Positions 3,831 through 14,699 of a DNA stretch of 64,000 nucleotides are shown here, piece by piece. A model generated the notes under the pieces. That model ran no database searches and was not told the origin of the DNA. It saw only the letters and a list, made by a program, of their open reading frames with translations. Numbering within the stretch: position 1 is the first letter of the stretch; the number at the start of each line of letters is the position of its first letter. A program made the position numbers and the translations under genes. The DNA is from Winogradskyella endarachnes (GTDB lineage Bacteria > Bacteroidota > Bacteroidia > Flavobacteriales > Flavobacteriaceae). The stretch covers positions 868,001 through 932,000 of the forward strand of contig NZ_WOWS01000001.1 of assembly GCF_009741275.1 (NCBI RefSeq), written 5' to 3'.

Positions 3831-3900
3831 TGATTAATAATTAGTGATTGGTCATTGGTCATTGGTGATTGGTCATTGGTCATTGGTGATTGGTGATTGG
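3831..3900. repeat. Heptanucleotide tandem repeat array, unit TSATTGG
   Basis: Starting with the first base after the DUF58 stop codon are two degenerate 7-bp units, then eight back-to-back units from 3845 to 3900. Each of the eight reads T-G/C-ATTGG, and the second base runs G,C,C,G,C,C,G,G. The array is non-coding and has no dyad symmetry. It resembles the arrays at 52753-52787, 52854-52902 and 61762-61838, which also have period 7. Confidence 0.9.
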
Positions 3901-4047
3901 TTGAAACTTACTTCAAATAAAATAACAACTCATCCTATTAAAATTACAATTCAGTAAATACAATTAAAAAAACAATACCTATTGTTAGATATTTGAATCA
4001 TCAAACAAAACGAATAGTATTTATCACTAACCATTAAACTTCAAATT

Positions 4048-4531: not shown

Positions 4532-6838
4532 TCACCAATATAGTCTAAACATAAAGTTTGGTGTAATACCAATAGAATAACGTTCTATTATTTCAACAGA
4601 ATCATTTAAACTGTTGTTTCCTCTATACTCTCTTGAAATGAGATTATTTCTGTTGTACAAATTCCGAACCGACAAACCAATTTTACCTCTTAGTTTATTT
4701 CTTTTAGACATTTTAAACGTATAGGTTGAAGATAAATCTAAACGATGATAAACAGGTAATTGCCCTGTGTTAATGCCATTATTAAACTCTAAGTCACCTA
4801 AACTATTATCGCTAGCTATAGTGTACGGTCTTCCGGTTTGCCATTTCCAACCTAAGGCTACTTGAAATCCATGTAACTTATAGCTTAAAGCGGTAGATAT
4901 GGCATTAGTTATGTTAGTCCTAGAATTAAAAGCCTTATTATTATTTAAATCACTAAACTGACTTTTTGCGTTGATGTAAGAATAACTAATCCAAGAGTTA
5001 AATCTTCTAAACCGCTTTTTAAGAAACACATCTGCTCCAAAAATATTTTGATTACCTATATTGAAACCAATATTCTCTGGGTTTAAAAATCCTAAAGATA
5101 AAGCCGAAATATTTTTCATACGTTTTAGGTAGATATCTGTATCTACACTAAACCCACTTTTAGAATAAATAAAACCAAGTGAAGCATGCTTACTATTAAT
5201 TATTGGTGAATTTTCTCCATTGGCAAGTCTCCAAACTCTATTTTCTAAAGACAAGTCACTAAAAACGGTTTCATCAATTTCGCTAATAATCTGGTTTTTA
5301 ATTTCTGCACTGGCCTGTAACTTAAAATATTGACTGAGGTCTTTAAAAACAAGTAGTCTTGGTTCTAATCGTATAGCATCTAGTTCTTGAAAATAGGTGT
5401 TTCTTAAACCAAAAGATATATCAAAAAAATTAGGGTTTTTATAATCTACATTAACATAAGCACTATGCGTTTGCACTATGTTTTCTTCAGAATCTAGCAC
5501 GAATCTTAAGTTGGTGGTGTTTAAAAACGCATAAGCCACATCTTTTAATGTATACTGATAACCAAAGTCGTAATTAAACTTTTTTGAGACTCTGTAATTT
5601 AATTCTGTGGATAATCCTGAATCAAAAATTATATTTCGTTTTTCGAAATTAGAAACCTGTTCGTTGTTTTCAAAAGTTAGAAAATTGTAATTGAGCTCGT
5701 AGTCAGAAAAATAGGCCTGAGTTTTCTGTTGTAACTTATTATTCCATTTAAAATTCCAACGTAAACTATAACCAGCATTTCTAATGTTTAGAAGATCATT
5801 AAAGCTTCTATCTGTGTTAGATTCAATTGAAAAATAATCTAACTGATTATCAATATTTATAATACTTGCATAGAAACTATGAGCGGTATTTAACTTATAA
5901 TTCAACTTTAAATTATAGTCTATAAATGAAAAATCATTTTCGCCTTCTTCTGCTTCATTAATCTTAGTGCTATTAAAAACCTTATCTGCAAATTGATTGA
6001 ATGTAAATGTTTCAAAAACATCAGTATAACTTCTTCTTAAGGATGCCTGTATATTTAGCTTATCTTTTATTATTGGTAATTCTATAACAGCATCTGCATT
6101 AACGCCATTAATACCAATTTCAGTATTAAGTGTATTGGCTATCTCATTTTTAGAATTAATATTTATTACTGAAGATAAGCGTTCTCCATACCTAGCATGC
6201 GTGCCTTTATTTATAAAGTTTATTTCTGAGGCCACATTTGGATTTAAAGGTGATATCATCCCAAATAAGTGTCCTTTGTGATAAATATTTATACCATCCC
6301 AAATTATACGGTTTTGATCTGCATAACCACCTCTAACAAAAAAGCCTGATGCAGTTTCGTTAGGACTCAATACGCCTGGTAATAATTGAATACTTTCTAA
6401 AACATCTGGCTCTGTTATACCTGGTAGAATACCCAATTGAGAAGGATATAACTTATAGGTACCATCACTGTTTTTCTCTATACCTTTTGTAAGGTAGCTT
6501 TTAATAAGGACTAGATCTAATTTTTTGGTATTATCTATTTCTTCTTGTTGCGCTAAACTAACAACAACATAGCGTTTCTCAATAATCTTATAATTAAGGT
6601 TAGTTTGTGTTTTTAATTCATTTAAAACCTCTAACAAAGTTCTCTTTTTACGAGTTACGGAAATTCTTTTATCCTTAACATAATCGTCTTTATAAGAAAA
6701 CAAAACATTGTAAGTATCTTCTATGTCTTCAATAGCATTTTGTAGTAATACATCTTTGAACTCTATGTAAAAAGCCTCTTCTTGAGAAAAGGCTAGTGTA
6801 GGTAGTAACATTAAGACCAAGATATATATTAACCTCAT
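4532..6838 (-). CDS. TonB-dependent receptor with N-terminal STN signalling domain
   Basis: A 768-aa outer-membrane receptor. A signal peptide (to about residue 18) is followed by an STN domain (about 23-93), a plug domain (about 125-235, with the FFVRGGYADQNRIIWDGI stretch) and a 22-strand-type barrel ending in a C-terminal aromatic residue (RLYW). STN domains of FecA-type transducers contact FecR in the periplasm, and the gene directly follows a FecR gene with a 4-bp overlap. The substrate is unknown: there is no SusD-like gene, siderophore gene or polysaccharide enzyme nearby. It is shorter than SusC-type receptors and lacks the usual carboxypeptidase-like N-terminal extension. Confidence 0.88.
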   Translation of the reverse strand: MRLIYILVLMLLPTLAFSQEEAFYIEFKDVLLQNAIEDIEDTYNVLFSYKDDYVKDKRISVTRKKRTLLEVLNELKTQTNLNYKIIEKRYVVVSLAQQEEIDNTKKLDLVLIKSYLTKGIEKNSDGTYKLYPSQLGILPGITEPDVLESIQLLPGVLSPNETASGFFVRGGYADQNRIIWDGINIYHKGHLFGMISPLNPNVASEINFINKGTHARYGERLSSVININSKNEIANTLNTEIGINGVNADAVIELPIIKDKLNIQASLRRSYTDVFETFTFNQFADKVFNSTKINEAEEGENDFSFIDYNLKLNYKLNTAHSFYASIINIDNQLDYFSIESNTDRSFNDLLNIRNAGYSLRWNFKWNNKLQQKTQAYFSDYELNYNFLTFENNEQVSNFEKRNIIFDSGLSTELNYRVSKKFNYDFGYQYTLKDVAYAFLNTTNLRFVLDSEENIVQTHSAYVNVDYKNPNFFDISFGLRNTYFQELDAIRLEPRLLVFKDLSQYFKLQASAEIKNQIISEIDETVFSDLSLENRVWRLANGENSPIINSKHASLGFIYSKSGFSVDTDIYLKRMKNISALSLGFLNPENIGFNIGNQNIFGADVFLKKRFRRFNSWISYSYINAKSQFSDLNNNKAFNSRTNITNAISTALSYKLHGFQVALGWKWQTGRPYTIASDNSLGDLEFNNGINTGQLPVYHRLDLSSTYTFKMSKRNKLRGKIGLSVRNLYNRNNLISREYRGNNSLNDSVEIIERYSIGITPNFMFRLYW

Positions 6839-7761
6839 TCTTTATAGCTCAGTTTAATGTTACCTTTTTCTCTTTCATTATATGTAATATTGAGCGTTTC
6901 AAATACTGTTTTTAAAGCAATATTTAAACTATCGTGCGGAAAACTACCTGTAAATGCTTCTGAGTTGTCAATGGCTTCTGTATTAAACTTTACATTGTAT
7001 TTATTTTCTAAGGCTTTTACAACATAACGTACAGGTACACTTTTAAATGTGCTTTCACCATGTATCCATGTTGGCATTTTATTAGAACTTTTATATGTTT
7101 TAATAGCGTCTCCATTTACACTTCTTAGAGCATTATGAGGTAATAGAATGTTTTCTGACTGTATAGTTTTTACAAGCACTTTACCTTCAAAACATACAAC
7201 ATCAAAAAAACCATTTGTAGTATTTACATTAAATTGAGTTCCTAATACTGACACTGAGCCATTATCAGTATTTACAACAAACGTTTTGCCTTTAGCTACT
7301 TTAAAATAGGCTTCTCCTTCTAGATAAAGTTTACGATCATTTTTCCAACCATCTTCATCGTAAATAAGCTTAGATTTAGAATTTAAAATAACTTCAGAAC
7401 CATCTAAAAGTGCAATTGTTTTATGCTCTCCAAAATCTGTTTCAATTATAACTTCATTACTCGTTGTAAACATAAACAGGCCAAATAACATTACTATTGA
7501 AGCTGCAATACCAATAGCCCAATTTGTATAAAGTGGCTTAACTTTTGGTGGCTTCTGCTCTATTTGTTTTTTAATCTTTACAAATGATTTATCGACAGAA
7601 GCATCGAGTTGCTGTTTAACATTAAAACCTTTTCGTAACTTTAAAAACATAGTATAATCCTCCTCACTTACCAAATGCTTTAGTTCAGTATCTGTAAGCT
7701 CTCCTTCTAACCATTTGGCTAAAAACGTATCTGAATTGTTATGTAAATGCTCTTTATTCAT
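6835..7761 (-). CDS. FecR family anti-sigma factor / signal transducer
   Basis: A 308-aa single-pass inner-membrane protein. The N-terminal cytoplasmic anti-sigma part (about 1-80) is followed by a membrane helix (about 83-103), a FecR domain (about 107-205, with the FGEHKTIALLDGSEVILNS repeat-type strands) and a C-terminal DUF4974 domain (about 240-305). In this family the periplasmic part receives a signal from the TonB receptor and releases the ECF sigma factor. The stop overlaps the receptor start by 4 bp. A promoter-like motif shared with the Kazal-like lipoprotein gene lies 14 bases upstream, at 7776-7805. Confidence 0.92.
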   Translation of the reverse strand: MNKEHLHNNSDTFLAKWLEGELTDTELKHLVSEEDYTMFLKLRKGFNVKQQLDASVDKSFVKIKKQIEQKPPKVKPLYTNWAIGIAASIVMLFGLFMFTTSNEVIIETDFGEHKTIALLDGSEVILNSKSKLIYDEDGWKNDRKLYLEGEAYFKVAKGKTFVVNTDNGSVSVLGTQFNVNTTNGFFDVVCFEGKVLVKTIQSENILLPHNALRSVNGDAIKTYKSSNKMPTWIHGESTFKSVPVRYVVKALENKYNVKFNTEAIDNSEAFTGSFPHDSLNIALKTVFETLNITYNEREKGNIKLSYKE

Positions 7762-7775
7762 TTGATTCTAATATT

Positions 7776-7805
7776 AAGACAACATTAAATTGCAAAACCC
7801 TACTT
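7776..7805 (-). promoter_or_regulatory. Putative ECF-sigma promoter of the fecR gene
   Basis: Read on the minus strand the site is AAGTAGGGTTTT, then 8 nt, then ATGTTGTCTT, ending 14 bases before the fecR start codon. The same two blocks with the same 8-nt gap occur on the plus strand at 8385-8414. The two-block layout with fixed spacing is what an ECF sigma factor would recognise (-35 and -10 elements), and the nearest such factor is the gene at 7819-8331. Recognition by that factor is inferred. Confidence 0.65.
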
Positions 7806-7818
7806 TCTTATAGATTAT

Positions 7819-8331
7819 TTACACATTTCCTATCTCTTTTCGCATTATAATTAGTGCTTGATGCATCCGTTTTTCTACAGCTTTTACACTAATATTTAGT
7901 TGCTCTGCTATCTCTTTATATTTTTTCTTCTCTATTCTATTCATTAAGAAAACTTCGCGTTGTTTTTCTGGTAAAGAATCAATAGTAGCCTCTAGCTTTT
8001 CCATAAATTCCTTTTCTAACAAGATAAACTCTGGAGACTCATTAGAACTTTCTTTCTTATGCTGTTTATTAAAATTTTGAACCACTTTCTGGTGCTTTAC
8101 CTCATTTAAAAACATATTGTTAGCAATACTAAATATGTAACTTTTTACTTTGTTATAATCTACATTACTACAATTATTCCATAATTTTATAAATACATCT
8201 TGCATTAAATCTTCTGCCCTTTCAATATCTTGCGTTTTAAAAAACAGAAAACGCCTTATGTCTTTTGCGTAAGCTTTATAGATCTTCTCAAAGGTTTTTG
8301 AGTGACAAATATTACGGTTATCTTTAAACAT
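7819..8331 (-). CDS. RNA polymerase ECF sigma-70 factor, FecI-type
   Basis: A 170-aa sigma factor with region 2 (about residues 12-75, including RAEDLMQDVFIKLWNN) and region 4 (about 115-165, SLPEKQREVFLMNRIEKKKYKEIA and an HTH). The length is standard for Bacteroidota FecI-like factors. It is followed on the same strand by fecR and the TonB receptor gene, forming a cell-surface signalling set. The 57-bp gap before fecR carries its own promoter-like motif, so fecR and the receptor gene could be induced separately from basal sigma expression. Confidence 0.94.
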   Translation of the reverse strand: MFKDNRNICHSKTFEKIYKAYAKDIRRFLFFKTQDIERAEDLMQDVFIKLWNNCSNVDYNKVKSYIFSIANNMFLNEVKHQKVVQNFNKQHKKESSNESPEFILLEKEFMEKLEATIDSLPEKQREVFLMNRIEKKKYKEIAEQLNISVKAVEKRMHQALIIMRKEIGNV

Positions 8332-8384
8332 TAGCGCTTTTGAAATTTCAGTTTCAAAACTATGAAAAAAATAATTTGAGAAAA

Positions 8385-8414
8385 AAGTAGGGTTTTATAA
8401 AGTTATGTTGTCTT
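8385..8414 (+). promoter_or_regulatory. Putative ECF-sigma promoter of the Kazal-like lipoprotein gene
   Basis: AAGTAGGGTTTT, 8 nt, ATGTTGTCTT on the plus strand, ending 47 bases before the start codon at 8462. All 22 defined bases and the gap length match the site in front of fecR on the opposite strand (7776-7805). The chance of two such matches around one sigma gene is low, so a common regulator is likely. That the regulator is the adjacent ECF factor is inference. Confidence 0.65.
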
Positions 8415-8461: not shown

Positions 8462-10138
8462 ATGAAAAAATTAAAATTAGTACTTTTTAGCTTAGCGTTT
8501 TCTTTATTGATGTTTACATCTTGTACTAACAATGAATCTATTATTGAAAATCAACAACAAACTGAAGAAAGTGAATCAATTACAGCTGCACTTGCTGCAT
8601 TAACAATACAGTTTGATTCTGACGGTAATGTTACACAAACCGATAATCCTGCTGGTAATATTGTTTTAGACTTCTGTTTTGATTTTGTTTACCCCATTAC
8701 CTTATCTTATAACAACGGTACAGCAGTTACTGTTGATGACTTAAATGGGATTATCAGCATTTTATTAACATCAACCGACCAATTATACGTTAATGGAATT
8801 GCTTTTCCTTTTAATGTAGAGACCTTTAATAATGACACTAATGCTATTGAAGTTGTAACAATTAATAATGAAGAAGAATTTATTGATTTAATTGAAGATT
8901 GTGATTTTGATGATATTGAAACTTGTGAATGCTTCGAAATTTATGATCCTGTTTGTGTAGAAATAACCGATCCTAGCGGAAACACCTTTATTGTTACTTA
9001 CCCAAACGAGTGCTATGCTGAGTGTGATGGCTTTGAAGAAGATGATTTTATTGAAAATTGCGAAGAAGACTATTACTCTGGTGGAGGAAATGAATGTTTT
9101 GAATTTAATTTCCCTATAGATATCATCATTGAAAATGGAAATGTAATTACTATTAATTCTCTCGAAGATTTTGGTAATGCAACTTATAATGTATATAACT
9201 TTGATTTTGTTTATCCATTTACAATATCTGTATATGACAATAACCAAGCCATTACAGTAACCATCAATAGCGTTGAAGATTTAGAAAATATATTAGAAGA
9301 ATGCAACGAAGATTATAATGATGATGACTGCCAATATGATAGTACTAGTTTAGAAAATACCTTAATTGCTAGTTGTGAATTATACAACATTGAATTATAC
9401 GACCTTAATGGCAACATTGTAAATGCATATAATGTAAACTTCAATCAAAACGGTGAGTTTATCGTTACTGGAGAAATTACTGTAACAGAAATAGCTACTT
9501 GGAACATTACAAGTACTAATGATACTCTTATTTTAAACATAGATGGTTTACAAGACTTTGGATTACTTAATGGTAGTTGGATTTTTGATTGTGATGATGA
9601 TGACTTAGAATTTTATAATGACAGCTACATAATAGAACTAGATTGTGACGGTGTTAATGAGGATTGTGAAGAATGTGGTGATGAGCCAATAGATCCTGTT
9701 TGTGTTAATATTGATGGTACTACGGTTGTCTTTGATAATGCGTGCTATGCCATATGTGCTGGTTATACAGAAGCTGATTTTGTATTCTGTAACTCTGGAA
9801 ATGATGTTTGTTTACCAAGTGCTATTTCAGATGCACTAACTAACAATTCTGGTTGGTCTATTAGTGACTATAACGACTCAGAAGAATTTGTTGATTATAA
9901 TATTACTTTTAATTCTGATGGCACCTTAGAATGGATGAGTAACGGAGCTGTTTTTAATGGTAATTGGTCTGCTAGCGAAAATTCAGTAAACGGTAACATG
10001 CTATCTCTAAGTTTTTCTGGACCAAACCTACAACAAGCAAGTGGTGATTGGATGATTATTGATTGTGATTTACCATGTTCTATATCATTATTATCTAATA
10101 ATGGAGACGAAATGTTACTGAGCAGAGACTGTGATTAA
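8462..10138 (+). CDS. Large acidic lipoprotein with two Kazal-like motifs
   Basis: A 558-aa secreted lipoprotein with a lipobox Cys at residue 21 (MFTSC). It is very rich in Asp, Glu, Asn and Cys. Related strand repeats of the form C/N-F-x-F-x-[YF]-P occur near residues 72, 212 and 247. Two Cys-rich segments match the Kazal pattern: C157-x7-C165, Y180-x3-C184-x3-C188 and C200; and C405, C414, C428-x3-C432 and C443. Two lipocalin-like segments with G-S/N-W motifs follow (about 297-395 and 450-558). Kazal domains are known protease inhibitors, but inhibition is untested here. The gene is divergent from the ECF sigma gene and has the same promoter-like motif as fecR, so it is a probable member of that regulon. 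Confidence 0.75.
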   Translation: MKKLKLVLFSLAFSLLMFTSCTNNESIIENQQQTEESESITAALAALTIQFDSDGNVTQTDNPAGNIVLDFCFDFVYPITLSYNNGTAVTVDDLNGIISILLTSTDQLYVNGIAFPFNVETFNNDTNAIEVVTINNEEEFIDLIEDCDFDDIETCECFEIYDPVCVEITDPSGNTFIVTYPNECYAECDGFEEDDFIENCEEDYYSGGGNECFEFNFPIDIIIENGNVITINSLEDFGNATYNVYNFDFVYPFTISVYDNNQAITVTINSVEDLENILEECNEDYNDDDCQYDSTSLENTLIASCELYNIELYDLNGNIVNAYNVNFNQNGEFIVTGEITVTEIATWNITSTNDTLILNIDGLQDFGLLNGSWIFDCDDDDLEFYNDSYIIELDCDGVNEDCEECGDEPIDPVCVNIDGTTVVFDNACYAICAGYTEADFVFCNSGNDVCLPSAISDALTNNSGWSISDYNDSEEFVDYNITFNSDGTLEWMSNGAVFNGNWSASENSVNGNMLSLSFSGPNLQQASGDWMIIDCDLPCSISLLSNNGDEMLLSRDCD

Positions 10139-11819: not shown

Positions 11820-12815
11820 CTAAATAGCATAATTCACATACAACGAAAAACGTTGTTGAGACTCTACATTATCTCCAAATAAATTCTGACTTACTGGCAA
11901 AGTATAACTAGCTCCAAAAATAAATTTATCAATGGCTAATTCTGAACCTAAAGATGCATTAAGAATACTTCCATCTGTATCTTGCAATGTTTCATCATAT
12001 TGTTTAATAGAATCATAAACATCACCTGATAAGCCTATAAATGGCATTATATTCATTTTCTCTCTGGCAAAAACAGTATATACATTAGCAGAATAACTAA
12101 ACTGATTACCAAATTGGTAATCATTTTTATTCTCACCTTTTAGATAATAACTAAATAACGTATTTACACCAATTTTATCACTTCCGTAGTTATAACCCAC
12201 AGAGAAAATACCATCTACACTACCTGTACCAACTTGGAAGCCTGGATTTACATTATCGGTTAAGCGCTCTTCAAACTTTCCAGTTGGTAATTTTACGCCT
12301 ATTCCAAATTGAATAGAATGTCCTGAAGCTTCTTTTGTTAAGTTATAATCAATTGTTGTAGAATCTTTCTTCTTTTTATAAAACATTAATTTGTACCAAC
12401 CAATGGCACTAACATCGCCAAGTCCATTTAAATTTTCTGTTTCACTTTCTAATTTTCTGCTTAAATCTTGGTATGGCACATTTGCTGTAACATAGAAATT
12501 ATCATTTATTGGGACCTGAGCCCACAACTGAATTGTATTAAATTTTTCTGTACTTGTTGGCGAATTTGTAAAAATGCCTGCTTTAGACTCAAAACTTTGG
12601 TAGATATAGCGTACACCAACAAAATTTGCATTGCTCAACGTACCAAAACCAAAACTACCACTACTTGTAGAGCACCCACATAAATCGCAAAACCACTTAA
12701 ATTGATGACTATTACTACATAAAGTATTAGGATTGTGAGCCTTTAAATTTGTAGTACTACAAATTAATAGCACAATTAAAATTAGTTTTATTTTAAAATT
12801 CTGCAAAACGTTCAT
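11820..12815 (-). CDS. Outer-membrane beta-barrel protein with N-terminal Cys cluster, copper operon
   Basis: A 331-aa protein with a signal peptide (about 1-26) and a predicted barrel of alternating strands ending in an amphipathic C-terminal strand. The mature N-terminus has four cysteines, C33, C43, C46 and C48 (CDLCGCSTSSG), which could bind metal or form disulfides. It resembles uncharacterised 'transporter' barrels found beside MbnP and MauG-like genes in Bacteroidota. Its start lies 23 bp inside the diheme peroxidase gene, so the two are probably translationally coupled. The transported substrate is unknown; copper is suggested by context only. Confidence 0.65.
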   Translation of the reverse strand: MNVLQNFKIKLILIVLLICSTTNLKAHNPNTLCSNSHQFKWFCDLCGCSTSSGSFGFGTLSNANFVGVRYIYQSFESKAGIFTNSPTSTEKFNTIQLWAQVPINDNFYVTANVPYQDLSRKLESETENLNGLGDVSAIGWYKLMFYKKKKDSTTIDYNLTKEASGHSIQFGIGVKLPTGKFEERLTDNVNPGFQVGTGSVDGIFSVGYNYGSDKIGVNTLFSYYLKGENKNDYQFGNQFSYSANVYTVFAREKMNIMPFIGLSGDVYDSIKQYDETLQDTDGSILNASLGSELAIDKFIFGASYTLPVSQNLFGDNVESQQRFSLYVNYAI

Positions 12816-13839
12816 CTTCTAAAAATTCAGTATCGGTTAAAGTATTTAAGAAAGCAATTAAGCTTTCCTTCTCATAATCAGACAGTGTTATACCATAACT
12901 ACCATCTTCTCTTAACAATAATGGATCTACATTTCCATTATCTATAGCTCCATTATCATAAAAATCTAAAACGGCTTCTAAGGTTGTAAATCTGCCATCG
13001 TGCATATAAGGGTATGTAACTACAACATTACGTAAACTCGGGACTTTAAATTTGTATAAATCTTCCGTGTTTTCTAAAATATCGTAACTTCCTTTATCAT
13101 CTAACAATGGATTTATAGGCAAACCATTATTTCTAAAACTTTGGTCAGAAAATAAATCTGTTGCATGGCAAGTAGCACATTTATTATTAAATGTATTTAG
13201 TCCATCGGTTTCAAGCGCAGTAAAAGTTACATTATCTTCATTTCTAACATATTTATCATATTTAGAGTTTGAAGACACCATCATAACCATAAACTGAGAT
13301 AATGCTTTTAACATATTCTCAGTGTTAACTTCACCATCTTCAAAAGCACGTGCAAATTTGTCTTGGTAATCAGTATCTGCCTCTAATTTTGAAATCACAT
13401 TACTCAATGTTTCATTCATTTCTACTTCACTTGTTAAAGGAATAATGGGTTGCAAGTCTAAATGTGTTGCAGCACCATCCCACATAAATGATGTTTGGTA
13501 GGCTAAATTTTGAATAGGCTGTGCATTTCTTGTCCCAACGCCTCCATCTACACCATGACTTAAATTATGGCCATGATGCGTAAATGCAAATGCTTGTTCA
13601 TGACAAAAAGCACATGCAATAGCGTTGTTAGAAGATAATTTACCTTCGTAGAATAAATCCTTACCCAATTCAAAACCAGCTTCGGTTATAGGGTTATTAT
13701 CCATATTATAAACCATATCCGGAAAATTAGAAGGCATTTCTACCTCTACTGAAACAGGCTCATATTTTGCTATATCTGAAGATTCAGAACAAGAAAATAC
13801 CAATACCATCACAAGTAGCATTTCTCTTATATATCTCAT
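12793..13839 (-). CDS. Diheme cytochrome c peroxidase, MauG/MbnH-like lipoprotein
   Basis: A 348-aa lipoprotein (lipobox Cys at residue 17, VFSC) with two c-type heme sites, CAFCH at 76-80 and CATCH at 221-225, and a YPYMHDGR segment near the second heme. This is the CCP/MauG fold. Because the adjacent gene encodes an MbnP-like protein, the closer comparison is MbnH, which oxidises a Trp of MbnP to kynurenine for copper binding; ordinary peroxide detoxification is the alternative. The start is set at ATG 13839; a TTG two codons upstream is less likely. It overlaps the barrel gene by 23 bp. Confidence 0.85.
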   Translation of the reverse strand: MRYIREMLLVMVLVFSCSESSDIAKYEPVSVEVEMPSNFPDMVYNMDNNPITEAGFELGKDLFYEGKLSSNNAIACAFCHEQAFAFTHHGHNLSHGVDGGVGTRNAQPIQNLAYQTSFMWDGAATHLDLQPIIPLTSEVEMNETLSNVISKLEADTDYQDKFARAFEDGEVNTENMLKALSQFMVMMVSSNSKYDKYVRNEDNVTFTALETDGLNTFNNKCATCHATDLFSDQSFRNNGLPINPLLDDKGSYDILENTEDLYKFKVPSLRNVVVTYPYMHDGRFTTLEAVLDFYDNGAIDNGNVDPLLLREDGSYGITLSDYEKESLIAFLNTLTDTEFLEDERFAEF

Positions 13840-13856
13840 AATCAATAGTTTATATT

Positions 13857-13889
13857 AAATCACTGGGAATATAAAATTCCCAATGATTT
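13857..13889 (-). other. Intercistronic hairpin between mbnP-like and peroxidase genes
   Basis: A 14-bp stem with one mismatch (AAATCACTGGGAAT / ATTCCCAATGATTT) and a 5-nt loop sits in the 59-bp gap. There is no T-run after it on the minus strand, so it is less a terminator than a candidate mRNA-stability or partial-attenuation structure that would favour the MbnP-like transcript. Confidence 0.6.
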
Positions 13890-13898
13890 TAATATTGA

Positions 13899-14699
13899 TT
13901 AATCGTTATGTACATGGTGAACCTCAAACATCGTTTGTACATTAGATGCTATAATTGGTGTTTCTGTTTCGTCTGTATGTACTTGATCGTAACCATCTGC
14001 AAAATTTACTGTTGTGGCTCCATCAAACACTTTAGAAATATCTGCAACAATATGTACTTCTGGCGAATTTTCCTCTCTTACTAAAACTGTATTTGGAAAG
14101 GATAAAGTCACTTCTCTATAATTATCTAAAGCTTCACCAACGCTTCCCATATGAATATTTAATGGTTCGTCTGTAACTGTATCTGTTGAAAATGTACCAT
14201 CAAATCTTACAAACTTATAACCAGAAGCCCAACTCCACATCATACCTTCTTCTGAAGCTAAATCTAAAAAGTCTCCTTGGCCATCTGCACCAAGTGCAAA
14301 ACGCTCTTGATCTATACCAATACCAAAAGTGATTTCTGTATAATCTGCAGCATCAATATCATTTAACGTTATATAAATTTCGCCAGCATTATTACCATTT
14401 AATTCGCTAACTATAAATACATTCTCTTCTGTTGGGTAAGTAAATGTATTACCTTCGGTATCAGTTACTCTTACATTACTAATAATGTATTTTACGTTAG
14501 TTAATTTAAAAGATTCGTTATTAGATTTTGAATAAGACGTCTCAAAGATAAAATCTTGATCACCAACAGAATTATCAAATTTTAGAATTAATTCTCCTGT
14601 CTCACCAGATAAATCTTCTTCATTATCATCATTGTCTATAGAACAGTTTGTAAATATTGCGCACGCCAAAAGTGCAAATGTATATTTAAGTAATTTCAT
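13899..14699 (-). CDS. MbnP family (copper-binding) lipoprotein
   Basis: A 266-aa lipoprotein (lipobox Cys at residue 19, FTNC). It shows the MbnP pattern: a strand-rich first half with YIISNVRVTD, then GMMWSWASGYKFVRFDG at 152-168 with Trp155 and Trp157, and a His-rich C-terminus (HHVH). In methanotroph MbnP/CorA proteins a Trp is converted to kynurenine by a partner diheme enzyme and takes part in copper binding. The peroxidase gene directly downstream fits this pairing. Which Trp would be modified cannot be told from sequence. Confidence 0.82.
   Translation of the reverse strand: MKLLKYTFALLACAIFTNCSIDNDDNEEDLSGETGELILKFDNSVGDQDFIFETSYSKSNNESFKLTNVKYIISNVRVTDTEGNTFTYPTEENVFIVSELNGNNAGEIYITLNDIDAADYTEITFGIGIDQERFALGADGQGDFLDLASEEGMMWSWASGYKFVRFDGTFSTDTVTDEPLNIHMGSVGEALDNYREVTLSFPNTVLVREENSPEVHIVADISKVFDGATTVNFADGYDQVHTDETETPIIASNVQTMFEVHHVHND

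Follow-up and report, generated by a model that had tools for sequence, protein, structure and literature searches.

Two identical ECF-type promoter motifs very likely serve the FecI-like sigma factor encoded between them in Winogradskyella endarachnes

In the 64,000-nucleotide stretch of Winogradskyella endarachnes DNA analyzed here (the window), a gene for an ECF sigma factor lies between two copies of one two-block motif. The locus raises the question of which factor reads these copies and which genes they switch on. To our knowledge, the promoters and targets of most Bacteroidota FecI/FecR systems have not been worked out. The features concerned are the following, in window coordinates.

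4532 to 6838, minus strand: TonB-dependent receptor/transducer gene (768 aa) with a FecR_C/STN-like N-terminal signalling region.
6835 to 7761, minus strand: fecR-like anti-sigma gene (308 aa); PF04773 at 69.8 bits and PF16344 at 34.2 bits, both above cut-off.
7776 to 7805, minus strand: P_fecR, a motif identical to P_lipo in the gap between the sigma gene and fecR, preceding fecR and the receptor gene.
7819 to 8331, minus strand: FecI-like ECF sigma factor gene (170 aa); Sigma70_r4_2 at 1.8e-18 and TIGR02985 at 136 bits (cut-off 126.4).
8385 to 8414, plus strand: P_lipo, an ECF-type promoter motif with -35 block AAGTAGGGTTTT and -10 block ATGTTGTCTT, before the divergent lipoprotein gene.
8462 to 10138, plus strand: divergent lipoprotein gene (558 aa) with lipobox C21, a conserved N-terminal domain, two cysteine-rich Kazal-pattern segments and a possibly lipocalin-like C-terminal domain.

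The sigma factor was classified as FecI-like, with Pfam sigma regions 2 and 4 both above cut-off, and the adjoining protein was classified as a FecR-type anti-sigma by PF04773 and PF16344. In the receptor, PF16344 matched residues 25-92 with 32.1 bits (cut-off 24.4), which identifies an N-terminal signalling domain; Plug (22.1, cut-off 23.9) and STN (16.9, cut-off 28.4) stayed under cut-off, and the NCBIfam profile search gave no match for this protein. Elsewhere in the window, an imperfect short repeat of gattggtcattggt was seen by eye in the intergenic stretch 3839-3901.

The motif has the form AAGTAGGGTTTT, an 8-nt gap and ATGTTGTCTT. We reproduced both copies from the window sequence at 7776-7805 (minus strand) and 8385-8414 (plus strand), and all 22 defined bases and the gap length are identical, whereas the spacer bases differ. 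The copies bracket the sigma gene and point outward, one toward the fecR start at 7761 and the other toward the lipoprotein start at 8462. No third copy was present in the window with up to 3 mismatches allowed, and none of 100 dinucleotide shuffles had a match. On all these points, the sequence-only reading of the locus was accurate. The GGG and TGTC cores are spaced as in ECF -35/-10 promoters generally, and the general form GTAGGGTTTT-N10-RTTGTCWT has this ECF-like spacing.

In the whole genome (3.61 Mb; 3,609,432 bases in 55 contigs), the exact motif with a gap of 7-9 nt occurred only at the two module sites, and the reversed control gave 0 occurrences. With the relaxed form GTAGGGTTTT-N10-GTTGTCTT and at most 3 mismatches, 8 matches were obtained versus 10 for the reversed control, so the weak genomic matches are at chance level. 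A wider regulon drawn from the relaxed motif was therefore dropped. Among 397 genomes of the family, the exact form GTAGGGTTTT-N10-RTTGTCTT resulted in 8 matches in 6 genomes, with 0 for the control. One other genome of this search (G064) also carries a minus/plus motif pair, 621 bp apart. A literature search, made mostly in journals open without subscription, found no apparent description of the motif or the module.

Conservation was assessed in modules sampled by homology to the module proteins, and the samples share descent. The lipoprotein was matched in 32 of 60 same-genus genomes (E 0.001), and both motif copies were present, with at most 4 mismatches in 22, in all 16 same-genus orthologous loci fetched (L004-L019, own locus excluded). 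A receptor search of named genomes resulted in 54 loci, mostly from Flavobacteriaceae, with Winogradskyella nearest. The modules with the window form of the motif, here type A, number 44, of which 42 are distinct, as L054/L116 and L055/L117 come from the same two genomes. Scores of at least 14/18 were reached at the fecR site in 40 of them, at the lipoprotein site in 39 and at both in 38, versus 2 of 1760 shuffled regions with both sites; the remaining 6 fell below this threshold at one or both sites. In the passing type A sites, almost no variation was seen in GTAGGG or in the GT of TTGTC, and the spacer is free, in logo columns built from sites picked by score. Thus, by sequence comparison, a conserved motif precedes fecR and the receptor gene in type A modules. 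The same two sites are kept, with differing spacers, in Flavobacteriaceae loci and in one Cyclobacteriaceae MAG. Among the 13 loci with distant lipoprotein matches (L020-L032), none had a type A pair and one had a single copy, and the wider regions of loci with distant lipoprotein matches contained another motif type.

The distance from the motif to the gene is conserved as well. P_lipo ends 48 nt before the called lipoprotein start (median 49 nt in 39 passing type A rows), and P_fecR ends 14 nt before the fecR start (median 15 nt in 40 passing type A rows), which indicates a conserved, very short fecR leader. Starts were set at the first start codon of each open reading frame, which shortened some upstream regions (e.g., L154). 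The fecR message is predicted to be nearly leaderless (window 7761-7776); if transcription begins some 7 nt past the -10 block, the leader would be only about 7-9 nt.

The genome itself harbors three FecR genes (PF04773). Laid out in the same way, the second module (L044) carries a pair of its own, GTAGGGATTTTT...CTGTTATAT, upstream of fecR and of its lipoprotein gene (by eye). In the third (L045, G000:C1:312000-324000), GGTTGGGTAAAATAA precedes each of the two lipoprotein genes; by eye, this module is organized differently, as FecI-FecR-receptor with lipoproteins on both sides, and was assigned to type C. Across 99 modules, the motif pairs sorted into types: type A; type B, GTAGG[AG]..TTT..CTGTTAT; and further forms TAGGGTAAA..GTCTTAA, TTGGGACAATT..GTTGTTTTAA, AGGAGAA and AGTAGTTTT..GTTGTTATAT. 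By our own reading, 17 of the 99 rows had a best pair other than the motif or no region remaining, and 7 more showed the -35 side only.

We then scored the best two-block match over 22 positions between the two regions of a module, using 96 of the 99 modules (short or identical regions dropped). The mean was 19.0 for cognate regions (n=96). It fell to 16.5 when the two regions came from different types (n=5920, with types other than A and B pooled), and shuffled and reversed regions gave 16.25 (n=960) and 16.3 (n=96), respectively; this score takes the best match of one whole region to another and is not partner-blind. Scores of at least 20/22 were found in 35% of cognate pairs, 0.4% of pairs of different types and 0% of both shuffles and reversed regions. 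Non-cognate pairs of the same type scored 18.2 (n=3200), nearly the cognate level, so the coupling is resolved per sigma type, not per genome. Paralogous modules in which a lipoprotein gene diverges from sigma-fecR-receptor thus tend to have their own, different motif pair, and the motif type appears to follow the sigma type. Since the paired copies match within modules and differ between sigma types, they fit a promoter for the module's own sigma factor. The shuffles for the pair score, the type A conservation, and the promoter-box counts and spacings given below are first-order resamplings.

The sequence-only reading had proposed a promoter of the cognate sigma factor, with fecR and the receptor gene autoregulated and the lipoprotein as output gene. 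Conservation of homologous sites, covariation by type and the ECF-like layout all support this proposal. We consider it very likely that the ECF sigma factor encoded between the two copies uses both as its promoters, as part of a FecI/FecR/TonB-dependent-transducer cell-surface signalling module, and the sigma factor would most likely drive fecR-receptor and the lipoprotein gene. Two identical two-block sites could in principle also be operators of a separate DNA-binding regulator; however, the motif is asymmetric with no palindrome by eye, has -35/-10-like spacing at a near-constant distance to the fecR start, and shifts its type with the sigma type across paralogous modules. Besides the lipoprotein, no single gene kind adjoins every module among neighbors that were annotated in part, and we regard an operator as very improbable. 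That the pair lacks function and stems from a recent local duplication or a shared repeat is suggested by the perfect identity of the 22 defined bases, but the spacers of the window copies differ, and the retention of both sites across Flavobacteriaceae loci and the Cyclobacteriaceae MAG, again with differing spacers, contradicts it; its probability is practically negligible.

Another ECF sigma factor of the genome could be the main reader of the motif, with the adjacent sigma factor cross-acting at most. This reading draws on the similar layout of the paralogous motifs and on a further site in the genome. The sequence-only reading saw no third motif copy in the rest of the window, which holds; a weaker third site, however, lies elsewhere in the genome, on contig C34. 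This copy, the one among the 8 relaxed matches that was looked at closely, has two mismatches (G000:C34:281758-281785, equal to L046:2259-2286, minus strand) and stands 24 bp before a gene for a di-haem cytochrome lipoprotein, which is TIGR03806-like (310.5 bits, just below the cut-off of 313.3) with two CXXCH. Type A genomes, defined by at least 55% FecR identity, make up 18 of the 60 genomes of the genus set. The site was compared in the 30 loci retrieved, out of 50 genomes with a match; it scored at least 14/18 in 23, comprising 9 of 11 same-genus loci with a type A system and 14 of 19 without one. Because it is conserved in 14 of 19 loci without the type A sigma factor, we left it out of the targets of this sigma factor, it is probably read by another one, and motif shape alone is no proof of reading by this sigma factor. 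For the pair in the window, the exact form is confined to this module within the genome and the motif form changes along with the module's own sigma type, and a main reader other than the adjacent sigma factor has, in our estimate, only a very slight chance of being correct. The module's own sigma factor remains the preferred reader.

The sigma gene itself has no motif copy upstream that is oriented toward it. Its probable promoter abuts P_lipo:

8355 to 8362, minus strand: P_sigma (probable), TAGTTTTG, which matches TAnnTTTG, the housekeeping -7 box of flavobacteria, back-to-back with P_lipo.

TAnnTTTG is described as the housekeeping -7 element of flavobacteria in PMC9723704. Of 41 type A rows, 29 have it upstream of the sigma gene, versus 4.7% of shuffles. 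From the start of the box to the first G of the P_lipo -35 element (GTAGGG), the distance is 25 bp in the window; among 42 type A rows, 25 share this distance and 33 fall within 24-27 bp. With the duplicates L054/L116 and L055/L117 left out, 31 of 39 distinct type A modules have a distance of 24-27 bp, versus 31 of 7800 shuffles. None of the 23 type B modules has a strict TAnnTTTG at this distance; in 19 of the 23, TTTG ends 30-31 bp away, often inside TATAATTTG, versus 80 of 4600 shuffles. Modules of other types are mostly without a strict box or TTTG at this distance, with TTTG at 32 in L075. The sequence between P_sigma and P_lipo varies among modules, as do the leader lengths. From this geometry, P_sigma and P_lipo are predicted to be mutually exclusive: occupancy of P_lipo would shut P_sigma because two polymerases could not fit on both abutting promoters.

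A lipoprotein-family member lies divergently upstream in 98 of 103 sampled sigma-fecR-receptor modules with the neighbor in view, a sample found via FecR or receptor homology that includes duplicates and falls short of a census. The five modules without one are L045, L066, L076, L148 and L149. The protein combines a lipobox cysteine with an N-terminal domain that is conserved among orthologs and with variable cysteine-rich segments; neither the window protein nor its orthologs matched any Pfam family above cut-off. The sequence-only reading had called it Kazal-like. The cysteine pattern is indeed there, with CxC...DPVC...YPNECYAxC in many orthologs, and 2 of the 28 orthologs searched gave a Kazal_2 match, the better one at E 0.02. 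The Pfam search, however, gave no Kazal match in the window protein, and the family label was rejected on these Pfam results. The pattern is also absent, by eye, from the distant orthologs L139, L155 and L166 and from the printed representatives of other lipoprotein types, and no Kazal inhibitor is named among the 50 Foldseek matches listed for either structural model. A Kazal-type protease inhibitor as the output of protease sensing is accordingly improbable.

The full-length lipoprotein model (pLDDT 76, pTM 0.41) had a sole Foldseek match at E <=0.001, a carboxylase with TM 0.13 that is not meaningful. Weaker matches were Tp17 (4u3q, E 0.004) and lipocalin-like proteins (4zgf, E 0.019; nitrophorins from E 0.015), and one segment of the modelled protein is perhaps lipocalin-like. 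The model of the N-terminal domain (pLDDT 80.5) gave no PDB match at E <=0.001. In Bacteroidota, SusC/SusD is a pair of a TonB-dependent receptor and a lipoprotein. The window module resembles it in having such a receptor with a probably co-regulated lipoprotein; it differs in that the lipoprotein gene is divergent from the receptor operon and its product has no Pfam SusD match. A SusD partner was rejected, as neither the window protein nor 27 orthologs gave a SusD match up to E 0.1. Because almost all sampled modules come with a member of this family, a surface partner of the receptor, capturing ligand or acting as a lid, is the most economical and most likely role of the lipoprotein.

On the divergent side, homologs of thioredoxin and ApbE were found in 10 of the 54 named loci, with DUF3570 in view in 8. 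In L145, L148, L149, L155, L156, L162, L163 and L166, the thioredoxin-ApbE-DUF3570 genes stand behind a related motif and point away from the sigma-FecR-receptor operon. The first divergent gene encodes a Rieske-like protein in L148 (named from sequence, not profile) and thioredoxin itself in L149, where the divergent-operon genes were annotated with Pfam; in both loci, motif copies of 14-16/18 stand upstream of the divergent gene and before fecR. The other eight thioredoxin/ApbE loci have a motif of 13-17 before the lipoprotein, and in L162 the motif before fecR scores only 11 of 18. Four loci contain, by eye, a small protein in the divergent operon; three of these proteins end in CGCN and are DUF4266-like. 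The lipoproteins of L045 are a CCP_MauG di-haem protein (PF03150; MbnH model under cut-off) and a PAP2 protein (VCPO domain under cut-off). As DUF3570 operons and Rieske-like, di-haem and PAP2/haloperoxidase-like proteins replace or adjoin the lipoprotein in relatives or paralogs, the gene content weakly suggests a role for the modules in surface redox chemistry.

In the window, a gene for a di-haem CCP_MauG peroxidase (PF03150, 178 bits) adjoins an MbnP gene (PF20243, 157 bits) at 12793-14699 on the minus strand. The third FecI module, L045, also begins with a CCP_MauG gene, that of its lipoprotein.

Flavinylation clusters consist of ApbE-DUF3570-thioredoxin-DUF4266 (eLife 2021, PMC8238504), and the same gene kinds form the divergent operon of distant type A modules; in contrast, the genome of the window has 0 DUF3570 matches. 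The words 'sigma' and 'fecR' are absent from the main text of that paper.

The module resembles the ferric citrate system FecI-FecR-FecA of E. coli in its ECF sigma factor, FecR-type anti-sigma and TonB-dependent receptor with an N-terminal signalling region. In E. coli, transcription of the receptor gene is reported to be driven by the sigma factor, and fecIR is under Fur control and not autoregulated (review PMC9249621); the former would also apply to the window module. Unlike E. coli Fec, the window has fecR and the receptor gene behind the sigma-type motif, with the sigma gene alone outside. The arrangement is, from its sequence, a variant of FecI/FecR in which the anti-sigma and receptor, not the sigma factor, stand behind the presumed sigma-type promoter, the divergent lipoprotein gene is a putative second target, and P_sigma and P_lipo lie back-to-back at a nearly constant spacing. 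In Flavobacterium psychrophilum, the CGT box of SM6 promoters is ascribed to an ECF sigma factor, and the SM6 genes include T9SS genes and others, among them one ECF sigma/anti-sigma pair, with no receptor-lipoprotein pair described in the accessible text (PMC9723704). Like SM6, the window motif has a flavobacterial ECF-type -10 region, and distant homologs of the module have CGT variants of it.

In the mechanism we propose, a surface signal would engage the receptor, whose N-terminal signalling region would act on FecR. The sigma factor would be freed, and RNA polymerase would start at both motifs. Receptor and lipoprotein would rise as output, and the anti-sigma would rise too, giving negative feedback. 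The sigma gene would stay on its housekeeping-type promoter, whose -35 region would abut the P_lipo -35 element at a nearly fixed distance, and the sigma-ECF holoenzyme on P_lipo would exclude the housekeeping holoenzyme from P_sigma as a second brake. A broader reading, of a Bacteroidota lipoprotein-sigma-FecR-receptor family in which the lipoprotein is both output and sensor part, the fixed back-to-back promoters act as a brake and surface redox chemistry is governed, is tentative and, taken as a whole, doubtful.

The pair is very likely a switch by which an outer-membrane sensing system would turn on its own receptor together with a partner surface protein. Through the motif pair, sigma types betray their promoters, and in many species their targets may become readable from the DNA. 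Testable hypotheses on what such systems may sense and how they may shut themselves off come from the recurrence of the lipoprotein, the shortness of the fecR leader, the abutting P_sigma and P_lipo and the ApbE/DUF3570 link.
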